A DNA stretch of 64,000 nucleotides from positions 1 to 64,000 of the forward strand of contig JACPJW010000002.1 in assembly GCA_016187335.1 (NCBI GenBank). The letters are read 5' to 3'. Shown one piece after another: positions 2,668-53,935 of the stretch. The DNA comes from Candidatus Aenigmatarchaeota archaeon (lineage in GTDB: Archaea > Aenigmatarchaeota > Aenigmatarchaeia > GW2011-AR5). The translations under genes and the position numbers were made by a program. The notes below the pieces were generated by a model. That model saw only the letters and a list, made by a program, of their open reading frames with translations, had not been told where the DNA came from and searched no databases. The number at the start of each line of letters is the position of its first letter. Position 1 is the stretch's first letter.

Positions 2668-5487
2668 CTACTTGATTCTTTTTATGTATTCTAATTCTTT
2701 GATTTCTTTGGAGAAATCTTTATCTTCATGAGATTTTAGCTTTTCTTGAGATAACAATTCAATCACTTCATCACAAGTTTCATTTATACTCAAAATAAGC
2801 CTTTCTTTATTTAGCTTAACATAATTTTGTTTCAGCGTTTTCAAAAATTCTATCATTTCACTTAAGATGTACTTTATGTAATCTTCTATATGTTTGGTTT
2901 GAGCTATTGGAAAGTTAGCCCTTTTAAGTACAATCAAATTTCTTACTATTTTGTAAATAGAATTATATTCTAGAGATAGCCCAAAAATTGCTCCATTTAG
3001 CAAAAGCTCATTTTTCACAATTCTGTTTGAAATTAGGACAGCTTTCGACAAATCTTCTATATCAGTTGATACGGAGTGTTTATCTACAAGGTTTTTTACT
3101 TCTTCGTTTATTACTAAAAGTATTTTTGCAACGCCACGATGGGATACGTACCAGCTTTGTTTTTTAACTAATATTTCTAGAATCTTAGAAACTGAAAATG
3201 TAGTTTTTTTAGTTTTTATTGCAGCTTGCTTTCCTATTTCTGCGATAGAATTTATTGACTCCACAGTTGAATCAGACAAATCTTCATCACAAGCTAAACC
3301 TATCAAAGCTAAATACCAAATAGAAGATTGCGTCGTATTATCAACAAAAATAGGACTTATGTTTTTAATTTCTAAAGTTTCTATACCTATCTTTTCAACA
3401 GTTTTTATTATATAATTTGTAATACGCTTATTTTTCTTTGAAATACTTATTTTAGATAAATATTCTAATTCTTCAAAAATTTCTGTAAGAAATTTATCTT
3501 CAGCTTGTGCTAAATCTTTTCTTTGTTGGGTATAAAATTGAGTTATTTCGAAAAGTGTGTTTAAACTTAGTTTTGTTAAACTTGAATTATTATTTTCAAC
3601 AGCTTTATTTAGTATATCAGAAATTTCCAGTAAAGCGTACATATCGTGTAGTCTTTCCGATACTTCTTTATGAAATATAAATTCTCTATAAATCTCTGGA
3701 GGGATTAATTTCTGAAGTAAATTATTTTTTTGTATTTTTGAAGCATCTTTAAATTTCTTAATAATTTTTAAATCGCCTTCTTTAATTATTTTAAGTGCTT
3801 TGTTGTAAGACATAAAGTTCGTTATTTCCATAAAAGCAAAGATAATTGAGATCACTAATTCTGAAGATAAAATGTAAATAAATGTTGAGAAGTCTAGGAT
3901 TCCTGTAATAACCGAGTAAAAAACTATTATATTCGTTACGATAAAGAAAATAAAAATTAGTATTAAATACTTCCTAACTTCTTTCATTACCCTAAAAGAA
4001 AATTTATCAGCGATTTCTTGCAAACTATTCATTGATAAAGTAGCAAAAAGAGCCAGTATTGTAATAACAAGTGTAAGGATTAGACCAACGTTGGAAATTT
4101 TCTGAGTTTCTTTAGTATCTACTTGAGACTGTATATCAATTAAAGAATCTCTAAGATTGTTATTGAAAATATCTTGTCGATTTTCTAAACGTGCTAAATT
4201 TGATCTTAGTTTATCCATTTCCAGTTTTAGATCATTGATATATGAATTAGAAATATCTTGGTAATAAATACCAAAATATATGTTTTCTACAGATTCCTTT
4301 AAGGTTATAGTTCTTTCATAAAAATTTTCAAATTCTACTAAACGTTCATTGTAATCTTCAATACTTGCATTAAAATCAGTTATCTTTTCTATCCTTTTTC
4401 TCTTATCTTCTAAATTATCAGCTGACCTGAAAATATTTATTACTTCAGTGTTCTTTTTATTTAATTCGTCTATTTTTTCTTCTATTACTTTGTTGAGCTT
4501 CTCAGTTTTCTGGGTAGCTAAGTAGACCTCATCAAGTGCTCTGAGATAAGCATAATGACCGTTGTAAGAATCGACAAAAATTACTTGTCCGCTTCCAAAA
4601 CCATCAAAAAATCTACTTTCAGATAAAACTATCTGAAACCCTAACCTTTTTGTTTGTTTTTTACCTTCGACAAATTCTATATTTGATTTATCGAGAAATA
4701 CGAAATTGTTTCCATCTTTAAAGGTGATTTGACTTTTTGAATCTTTGAATCTCCAAAACGCATGAGTTGGTTTTATGGAATTATATATCTTGCTTTTAGA
4801 ACAATCAGCATATATATCGCCTTTTGCATAACTGCAACCCATTTTGTCAAAATAAGTATTTGAATAATAAACATCTGTTAATTGAAAAAGTTGTGGTTCT
4901 CCATAATAGTTCATTTCGCAGAAACCATAAGGAGCAATTTCAGAATCTCTTAAAAAAGTTCTAAATGCAAGTTCAATTCGACTTATTATTGCTTGAAAAA
5001 TTTCCATTGATTTATGGTATTCATTACCAATATTTTCGTAACTTTCGGAAGTAAAAATATTGAATCCTTTTTTATCTAAAGTTAAAGACCACCAATAACC
5101 ATCTGTTTGAAAGATGTATACATTATTTTGCTCATCAACTATCTCAAGACTTAAACTATCATAAAAATAAAACCTATCTATGGGGTATTTCTTTATGTAA
5201 AATTTTCTTTTATCGCCGTATTCTTTAGTTAATCCTTCATCTAGTATATCGTAAAATAATTTTGCAGTACTTTCGTTAAAATATATAGGCTCTAAGAGAT
5301 CCTCATCTTTATAGAAAGTACTATTGTAACATTTGGATCTGTCAATTACAGTAAATGTAAGTCCATAACTTTCTTTAGAAACATTTTGATCATTGATTAA
5401 GATTTCTGCATGTGATATATGAGCAAAAATCAAAATAAAGAAAACACTAAAAAAGATATAAAATTCTAGTTTGCTTAAAATACCCAT
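2668..5487 (-). CDS. Large AT-rich membrane protein, function unknown
   Basis: A 939-residue protein. It begins with a signal peptide (residues 1-27, ending near SHAE), followed by about 300 residues of extracellular mixed sequence, then long coiled coils at about 320-460 (LNKVIEEKIDELNKKNTEV). A cluster of about three to four membrane helices follows at about 465-560, and a helical cytoplasmic part of about 370 residues rich in Ile, Lys and Glu completes it. A TATA-like ATTTAAAATC lies about 25 bases before the ATG. Its codons are far more AT-rich than the ribosomal genes beside it, which suggests recent acquisition. Architecture (sensor-like ectodomain, coiled coil, membrane, helical output) hints at signalling, but I recognise no catalytic domain. 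Confidence 0.85.
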   Translation of the reverse strand: MGILSKLEFYIFFSVFFILIFAHISHAEILINDQNVSKESYGLTFTVIDRSKCYNSTFYKDEDLLEPIYFNESTAKLFYDILDEGLTKEYGDKRKFYIKKYPIDRFYFYDSLSLEIVDEQNNVYIFQTDGYWWSLTLDKKGFNIFTSESYENIGNEYHKSMEIFQAIISRIELAFRTFLRDSEIAPYGFCEMNYYGEPQLFQLTDVYYSNTYFDKMGCSYAKGDIYADCSKSKIYNSIKPTHAFWRFKDSKSQITFKDGNNFVFLDKSNIEFVEGKKQTKRLGFQIVLSESRFFDGFGSGQVIFVDSYNGHYAYLRALDEVYLATQKTEKLNKVIEEKIDELNKKNTEVINIFRSADNLEDKRKRIEKITDFNASIEDYNERLVEFENFYERTITLKESVENIYFGIYYQDISNSYINDLKLEMDKLRSNLARLENRQDIFNNNLRDSLIDIQSQVDTKETQKISNVGLILTLVITILALFATLSMNSLQEIADKFSFRVMKEVRKYLILIFIFFIVTNIIVFYSVITGILDFSTFIYILSSELVISIIFAFMEITNFMSYNKALKIIKEGDLKIIKKFKDASKIQKNNLLQKLIPPEIYREFIFHKEVSERLHDMYALLEISDILNKAVENNNSSLTKLSLNTLFEITQFYTQQRKDLAQAEDKFLTEIFEELEYLSKISISKKNKRITNYIIKTVEKIGIETLEIKNISPIFVDNTTQSSIWYLALIGLACDEDLSDSTVESINSIAEIGKQAAIKTKKTTFSVSKILEILVKKQSWYVSHRGVAKILLVINEEVKNLVDKHSVSTDIEDLSKAVLISNRIVKNELLLNGAIFGLSLEYNSIYKIVRNLIVLKRANFPIAQTKHIEDYIKYILSEMIEFLKTLKQNYVKLNKERLILSINETCDEVIELLSQEKLKSHEDKDFSKEIKELEYIKRIK

Positions 5488-10570: not shown

Positions 10571-10601
10571 CCTTTTGATGAAACTTTTTTGAAAAGTTTC
10601 A
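10571..10601 (-). repeat. Family 1 hairpin repeat
   Basis: On the minus strand TGAAACTTTTCAAAAAAGTT is followed by TCATCAAAAGG: a 9-bp stem with the ATCAAAAGG tail that defines the family. Its first triplet is the stop codon of the zinc-ribbon gene at 10599-10763. Confidence 0.75.
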
Positions 10602-25808: not shown

Positions 25809-25901
25809 TGGAACGCATTAAACAGAAAACCTATTTAAAATTAGACTGGATTTTATTTCGTGATTGCAGCGTGATTAGTTCTTTTCCGCCAGCGCTTTTT
25901 C

Positions 25902-25932
25902 TTTTTGATCAAACTTTTTCCTAAAAAGTTTG
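25902..25932 (-). repeat. Family 1 hairpin behind tRNA-Ile
   Basis: The minus strand reads CAAACTTTTTAGGAAAAAGT then TTGATCAAAAAG, 12 bases after the tRNA-Ile 3' end. It may help terminate the tRNA transcript. Confidence 0.65.
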
Positions 25933-25971
25933 AAAGGGCTGGATGGGACGGACCCGATTTTCATGAACTTT

Positions 25972-26003
25972 CCCTTTTGATTGGACTTTTTGGAAAAGTT
26001 CAA
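25972..26003 (-). repeat. Family 1 repeat forming the tRNA-Ile T-loop intron
   Basis: The minus strand reads TTGAACTTTTCCAAAAAGTC then CAATCAAAAGGG, hairpin plus tail as in other copies. In the tRNA, TGAACTTT also pairs with AAAGTTCA at the intron's far end, which could form the bulge-helix-bulge. Confidence 0.75.
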
Positions 26004-26062
26004 TTTGAACGGGCGACCTTCCGATTATCAGTCGGATGCTCTAGTTGCCCCGCCCTTTCCTT

Positions 26063-26161
26063 GTTTTCTTTCCGTGCATTCTTTTTCTTTCCGTGCATTC
26101 TTTTTCTTTCCGTGCATTCTTTTTCTTTCCGTGCACGCTTTCTTTTCTAAAGAAAGGGTGC
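26063..26161 (-). repeat. Family 2 hairpin plus 19-bp tandem array in the D-loop intron
   Basis: The minus strand opens with GCACCCTTTCTTTAGAAAAG then AAAGCGTGCACGGAAAG (family 2 hairpin). Four 19-bp units follow at plus-strand 26063-26081, 26082-26100, 26101-26119 and 26120-26138, each ending in CCGTGCAttc or CCGTGCAcgc. The array repeats the 3' tail of the hairpin. Confidence 0.85.
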
Positions 26162-26204
26162 CCAGGCTAAGCTACCGTCCCGCAAGCTTATCTTTCATTC
26201 ACGG

Positions 26205-28536: not shown

Positions 28537-28681
28537 GGGCTGGTAGATCAACGGAAGATCGCTTGCATGGCAAGAGGAGAAACTGTAATATCCTGAAAAG
28601 GAAATGAGGGTAGAGGGAGAGAAACGTCAGTTTCTTCTCCCCTTGTGCAAGAGGCTTCGGGTTCAAATCCCGACCAGTCCA
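28537..28681 (+). tRNA. tRNA-Ala (GGC) with anticodon-loop intron
   Basis: Acceptor GGGCTGG (28537-28543) pairs with CCAGTCC (28674-28680), again with the alanine G3:U70; discriminator A 28681. D arm GATC/GATC. Anticodon stem CTTGC/GCAAG; anticodon GGC at 28569-28571. A 73-base intron occupies 28573-28645, the canonical 37/38 site. Its ends (GGAGAAACTG and CAGTTTCTTCTCC) pair to give the bulge-helix-bulge. T arm TCGGG-TTCAAAT-CCCGA. Confidence 0.92.
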
Positions 28682-53409: not shown

Positions 53410-53595
53410 ATGAACCCGTCAACCCTGGAGAAATTAAGCGCCCTGTCGTTCCTGCTTATCGGCATTTCTTTGCTTTTGTTCGCCATGACGCTGGTAGGCG
53501 TAAACACGCAGTTTTTGGGGATTGCAATGGTCGTTTCGGGCATAGTTGCTGTCATAACAGGCGCGTTTTTGTGGCTTGACAGCAGGAAGCAGTAG
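53410..53595 (+). CDS. Two-helix small membrane protein
   Basis: A 61-residue frame with membrane segments at about 9-29 and 35-55, and polar ends (LEKLSALS; LDSRKQ). ATG 53410 follows GGGATAATC and a TATA-like TTTATAAG. No family recognised. Confidence 0.6.
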   Translation: MNPSTLEKLSALSFLLIGISLLLFAMTLVGVNTQFLGIAMVVSGIVAVITGAFLWLDSRKQ

Positions 53596-53601
53596 ACCCT
53601 T

Positions 53602-53630
53602 TGCAACTTTTCAGAAAAGTTGCATCAAAA
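53602..53630 (+). repeat. Family 1 hairpin with tail
   Basis: TGCAACTTTTCAGAAAAGTT then GCATCAAAA on the plus strand: an 8-bp stem with the ATCAAAA tail, between the membrane protein and tRNA-Lys. Confidence 0.75.
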
Positions 53631-53735
53631 TGGAGAAAGCGTCTGCGGAAAGAAAATACATTAAAAATCATGTACGGAAACTTCGTTTTCTGGGCAAAGA
53701 ACATTTAAAAGATATTACACTGATTATTTCTGCAC

Positions 53736-53935
53736 GGGCCTGTAGCTCAGATGACCCTTTGCACCCTTTTTAGAAAAAAGCGTGCACGGAAAAGGGAGGG
53801 TCAGAGAAACCTGGTAGAGTAGCGGCCTCTTAATATGGCGAAAGCCTTTAAGGGAAAGGAGTTAACCTAAGAGGAAAACCGTAGGTTGTCTCTCTGGTAA
53901 GCCGCCTGTCGCGGGTTCGAATCCCGTCGGGCCCA
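53736..53935 (+). tRNA. tRNA-Lys (CTT) with D-loop and anticodon-loop introns
   Basis: The acceptor GGGCCTG (53736-53742) pairs with CGGGCCC (53928-53934); discriminator A. D arm GCTC/GAGT, anticodon stem GCGGC/GCCGC with anticodon CTT at 53829-53831, T arm GCGGG-TTCGAAT-CCCGT. Insert one, about 53751-53809 (59 bases), splits the D-loop between G15 and C16. Insert two, 53833-53899 (67 bases), is at the canonical 37/38 site. Removing both gives a 74-base tRNA with D-loop AGCCTGGTA, identical to tRNA-Ile. TATA-like CATTTAAAAGA at about 53702-53712. Confidence 0.9.
53755..53795 (+). repeat. Family 2 hairpin in the tRNA-Lys D-loop intron
   Basis: GCACCCTTTTTAGAAAAAAG then CGTGCACGGAAAAG, the same element and strand sense as in the tRNA-Ile D-loop intron, with a shortened stem. 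Confidence 0.85.

Follow-up and report, generated by a model that had tools for sequence, protein, structure and literature searches.

The tRNA-Lys(CUU) gene of a Candidatus Aenigmatarchaeota archaeon (a DPANN lineage), whose genome (G000) measures 1.01 Mb in two contigs and is 90.8% complete, is split by two introns, and we consider it probable that this is a working gene whose transcript would be spliced twice, in a genome where short dispersed hairpins settle in tRNA and rRNA introns. The gene occupies positions 53736-53935 (+) of the 64,000-nt stretch of DNA that was analysed here, referred to as the window (Table 1). By ribosomal protein S8e, the closest named relative is a Candidatus Aenigmatarchaeota genome, at 75% identity. 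As the hairpins are scattered genome-wide and are always found in sense orientation inside tRNA genes, the locus bears on how archaeal tRNA introns spread.

Table 1. Features of the 64,000-nt window that are discussed in the text
Feature	Positions	Strand	Remarks
Exon 1 of tRNA-Lys	53736..53750	+	acceptor 5' strand, tRNA positions 1-15; pairs with 53928-53934
Intron 1 of tRNA-Lys	53751..53809	+	59 nt, D-loop site 15/16, relaxed BHB
Family B hairpin within intron 1	53761..53792	+	GCAC-CCTTT...AAAGC-GTGC-ACGGAAA; core AAAGCNNNNRCGGAAA
Exon 2 of tRNA-Lys	53810..53832	+	remaining D-loop to position 37; anticodon CTT
Intron 2 of tRNA-Lys	53833..53899	+	67 nt, anticodon-loop site 37/38; bulge-helix-loop without canonical 3' bulge
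Family-D-like sequence within intron 2	53851..53894	+	AAGGGAAAGGAG...GAGGAAAACCGTAGGTTGTCTCT
Exon 3 of tRNA-Lys	53900..53935	+	tRNA positions 38-73, discriminator A
A hairpin nested in loop of B hairpin	53592..53651	+	intercistronic, directly after TAG stop of 61-aa ORF; not at orthologous site of G001
A nested in B	25883..25930	-	immediately downstream of tRNA-Ile
tRNA-Ile(GAT) gene	25944..26181	-	D-loop intron 19/20 (B and tandem B tails); T-loop intron 59/60
tRNA-Ala(GGC)	28537..28681	+	anticodon-loop intron with D-like sequence

Two introns of about 59 and 67 bases, the first between positions 15 and 16, had been the core of the original prediction, and both are borne out by the exon map and by the folding of the joined exons: the three exons (15, 23 and 36 nt) give a 74-nt product that ARAGORN reports as tRNA-Lys(ctt) with all four stems closed, and the unspliced gene gives no match with either ARAGORN or Rfam. 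The EndA cut was placed after the second of the three bulge nucleotides, in agreement with the complex in PMC12397907. For intron 1 the BHB register leads to exactly the junction of AG with CCTGG; exon bases C11-T12-C13 pair with GAG of the intron (central CTC/GAG), with AG^A and AA^C as bulges, which amounts to three of the four central pairs of the 4-bp BHB form, and the intron helix comprises nine pairs (TGACCC.../...GGGTCA). In shuffled versions of the intron, at least three central and at least six helix pairs at the same register were obtained in 5 of 20,000 cases. The mature D-loop, in contrast, differs from that of tRNA-Ile, with which it had been equated: AGCCTGG is common to both, followed by TA in tRNA-Lys but by CTA in tRNA-Ile.

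For intron 2 a CTCT (exon)/AGAG (intron) helix and a 5' bulge (TA^A) exist, and a loop of ~26 nt with a hairpin replaces the 3' bulge, giving a bulge-helix-loop whose boundary can be slid by a few bases with the spliced product unchanged. No register fits a strict canonical BHB at this intron, which is why ARAGORN with BHB-based splicing mis-assigned the Lys anticodon; this was one of several anticodons that were wrong in this mode, and it was trusted for genes with a clean BHB only. A nested 24-nt intron in intron 2 was considered and dropped, as it has no BHB of its own, and a group I intron was discarded after an Rfam gathering search of the window returned one tRNA only and no catalytic core. 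An interrupted tRNA of a relative (G029; L049/L167) has a layout like that of Lys intron 2.

The earlier claim that splicing is obligate stands only insofar as no second tRNA-Lys(CTT) was found in the 90.8%-complete assembly and nearly all other located tRNA genes are interrupted; the permissive splicing proposed along with it is plausible because relaxed and non-canonical sites abound. Were the gene a dying pseudogene, another tRNA would have to read the lysine AAG codons, and it is in line with this that tRNA-Lys(TTT) was not identified among the 37 located genes and that the lysine tRNA set is incompletely known. However, the stems of the spliced tRNA are all intact, a syntenic, interrupted ortholog with intact exons is present in a genome of the same genus (G001), and the failure to find a further tRNA-Lys(CTT) argues in the same direction, so that we regard decay as highly improbable. 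An assembly artefact or chimera might be suspected in a draft genome of two contigs and 90.8% completeness, but the same phenomenon is seen in many independent relatives and the exons remain in register, which makes this explanation scarcely credible.

A working tRNA-Lys transcript would be spliced by the archaeal protein pathway, with EndA cleaving at the bulges and a ligase joining the exons. The only EndA gene found (G000:C2:410505-411113, minus strand; L044:706-1314) encodes 202 aa, with PF01974 and an N-terminal PF02778. Of its catalytic residues Tyr and His are present and Lys is replaced by Ala, both here and in 12 of 12 aligned relatives (motif NIRA[RK]ML; the position corresponds to M. 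jannaschii Lys156, numbering counted from the alignment); the Tyr-His-Lys triad is thus incomplete in this protein. According to PMC6379350, the known EndA types retain all three residues. In the enzyme and its relatives, Tyr and His are separated by a conserved KKGPKS insertion that resembles N. equitans NEQ205; the EndA types for which broad specificity is reported are different, loop-bearing ones. The search may have overlooked a second, divergent subunit; a single-sequence structure prediction of EndA was poor (mean pLDDT 41.5) and left unused. Since the catalytic lysine is missing, we classed introns by structure and not by cutting enzyme, and, with an EndA conserved in this form, the identity of the cutting enzyme comes into question.

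Both tRNA-Lys introns contain sequences that recur elsewhere. Two hairpin families could be described by a consensus, in both cases our own reading: NN-AACTTT-loop-AAAGTT-N'N'-ATCAAAA for family A and N4-CCTTT-loop-AAAGC-N4'-RCGGAAA for family B. Exact cores occur 94 times (A) and 46 times (B, AAAGCNNNNRCGGAAA) in the genome, with 0 hits for reversed-pattern controls. The variable stem bases covary, being complementary in 63 of 69 copies of A (shuffles: mean 10.3, maximum 23) and in 29 of 36 copies of B (shuffles: mean 4.4, maximum 13). A third family, D, matches part of Lys intron 2; similar sequences are found in intergenic positions (L078, L103, L104 and L107), within a D-loop intron (L008) and in the G029 tRNA mentioned above. 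Inside tRNA genes we counted 32 exact A or B cores, distributed over 20 genes and all in sense orientation (antisense 0/32). These genes hold 18 of the 46 B cores in 6,174 nt, i.e. ~0.6% of the genome, an enrichment that would be smaller against non-coding DNA alone. Because element clusters led to some of the tRNA genes, the share of element-bearing tRNAs is biased, whereas the number of B copies inside tRNA genes is not.

Between co-directional genes, 37 copies are sense against 6 antisense, and the copies often follow a stop codon directly; four of the six antisense ones proved to be actually sense in tRNA genes (L081, L085), leaving two. Family A copies at window positions 10573, 15066 and 17956 begin at stop codons, and their stem takes in bases of the TGA, TAG or TAA, to which the 3' arm is therefore complementary. 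The genes of the window are themselves unevenly oriented (14 of 56 called genes on the + strand), contig C2 is likewise strongly biased, and the elements are strand-biased accordingly.

The hairpins might be functional RNA elements of the host, e.g. protein-binding or RNA-processing sites, that are kept sense in all transcripts, in which case their presence in tRNA introns would reflect selection and not mobility. The strong stem covariation and the conserved tails fit this explanation, as do the orientation of the co-directional copies, their frequent position right after stops and the copies beside the 16S rRNA 3' end (two of family A directly after it; L088, minus strand near 4000). Nevertheless, we find it rather unlikely, for within a single genus elements at intercistronic sites of one genome are missing or different at the orthologous sites of the other, whichever genome is taken as reference, copy numbers are lineage-specific (94 copies of A in G000, 27 in the half-complete G001 of the same genus and 0-11 outside the genus), and copies occur in tandem and nested.

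Alternatively, REP- or MITE-like palindromes that are mobile at the DNA level could insert anywhere, with the survivors being those that lie sense within introns or between genes. Families A and B are indeed dispersed multicopy hairpins with presence/absence polymorphism, and the existence of repeat families, the nesting of A in B and the turnover would all be expected of such elements. Bacterial REPINs provide a precedent (PMC3116915): they share with our families the short dispersed intergenic hairpins and the lineage-specific expansion, but differ in that the G000 elements are archaeal, sense-biased and located within introns. The complete lack of antisense copies in tRNA genes would demand strong selection, and the variable stem bases covary instead of decaying, which leaves this origin possible but doubtful. 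Pfam matches among the neighbouring genes were limited to ribosomal L37e and one nucleotidyltransferase domain, with no mobile-element gene.

The interruption of tRNA-Lys is typical of its genome: 33 of the 37 tRNA genes located via T-arm patterns, Rfam hits and element clusters (an incomplete list with several provisional anticodons) measure more than 96 nt. Their inserts lie in the D-loop, the anticodon loop and the T-loop, and most tRNA genes of this genome escape standard tRNA finders. Thr(TGT), His(GTG) and Val(CAC) have an intron in the D-loop, Arg(TCG) carries inserts of 44 and 33 nt, Arg(TCT) has introns in the anticodon stem and the T-arm, and Ser(TGA) contains three introns. One systematic scan gave eight T-loop introns at 59/60, to which one more in Ser(TGA) can be added. 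The T-loop intron of tRNA-Ile is of the A type with a perfect BHB, TTCA(AA^T)/TGAA(AA^T), and a near-identical intron is found at the same site in tRNA-Pro; separately, three tRNAs have a B-type T-loop intron in common. T-loop introns thus occur as near-identical copies at the same site of different tRNA genes, as transposed introns do; this result concerns the T-loop introns rather than the two Lys introns. In the D-loop intron of tRNA-Ile, window positions 26069-26141 hold the B tail (AAAGAATGCACGGAAAG) as a 19-bp unit repeated in tandem.

Archaeal BHB tRNA introns are known from Thermoproteales, Nanoarchaeota and ARMAN, with up to three per tRNA and at sites including 53/54 and 59/60 (PMC4090602). 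The introns described here resemble them in their BHB or relaxed sites, their non-canonical positions and their occurrence several to a gene, and differ in the Aenigmatarchaeota host and in bodies made of dispersed repeat families that are also present outside tRNA genes. With transposed tRNA introns, whose transposition mechanism is unknown according to the same review (PMC4090602), they share the near-identical copies in different tRNA genes; here, however, the shared sequences recur at intercistronic sites and in an intron of 23S rRNA, in sense orientation and with covarying stems. In the Asgard Atabeyarchaeia and Freyarchaeia, 92-95% of tRNA genes bear introns, many of them non-canonical and multiple, and the available part of that report does not mention any dispersed-element content of the introns (PMC11291895).

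The 23S rRNA gene (L087, G000:C2:208800-211600, minus strand) contains a 46-nt insert that is a perfect hBHBh' intron built of element A, with helices of 10 bp (intron), 4 bp (centre) and 6 bp (exon). Crenarchaeal rRNA carries BHB introns as well, in Thermoproteales 16S (PMC4496867); the 23S insert is like these in its intron structure, but leaves no room for a homing endonuclease gene and has element A as its body. Another insert of the same gene bears B and has no clear BHB. Non-canonical and multiple introns, and the copying of introns between tRNA genes, are already known. Our search of the open-access literature found no description of an intron body from genome-wide, sense, covarying hairpin families common to an rRNA intron and intercistronic sites, and intron bodies drawn from genome-wide sense hairpins are apparently new.

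From these patterns we infer that the elements move and enter pre-existing introns rather than founding them. Short dispersed hairpins (A, B and probably D) would settle in the tRNA and rRNA introns of this lineage; in Lys intron 1, the B copy occupies the loop closed by the intron stem, with the splice sites remaining outside it. Introns would lengthen by the entry of elements, be copied among tRNA genes at equivalent sites and shift position between close relatives. In many A-type introns the 5' arm of the element doubles as the intron stem, and there the element may therefore be the intron itself and not a guest. A more speculative route, which we hold to be quite unlikely, is that the hairpins spread as RNA, with excised intron hairpins being joined into tRNA, rRNA or intercistronic mRNA, copied to DNA and fixed. 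The exclusive sense orientation would then follow by itself from the insertion of RNA into RNA, and if this were true, a minimal mobile RNA would have BHB introns as one of its stages.

Comparison with relatives shows a fast turnover of elements and intron sites. The syntenic tRNA-Lys of G001 has a D-loop intron at 19/20 that holds an A copy, and therefore differs from that of G000 in both site and element. Elsewhere the D-loop intron of tRNA-Lys is A-type at 19/20 (G010), located at 15/16 (G008) or absent (G028). Family B expanded separately in several families, with 29 copies in G017, 31 in G021 and 38 in G045. The T-loop intron of tRNA-Asp is element-free and 28-30 nt long in G006, G011 and G016, and measures 67 nt with a B copy in G018. 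With countable, dispersed and fast-turning families, and with relatives whose introns at the same site lack an element, the gain and growth of introns become traceable event by event. A fourth dispersed hairpin, ATGGTCTGGACAGAATT...AATTCTGGGCAG, was noticed at L078, L081 and the G001 locus L150, and replaces an A copy at one orthologous site.
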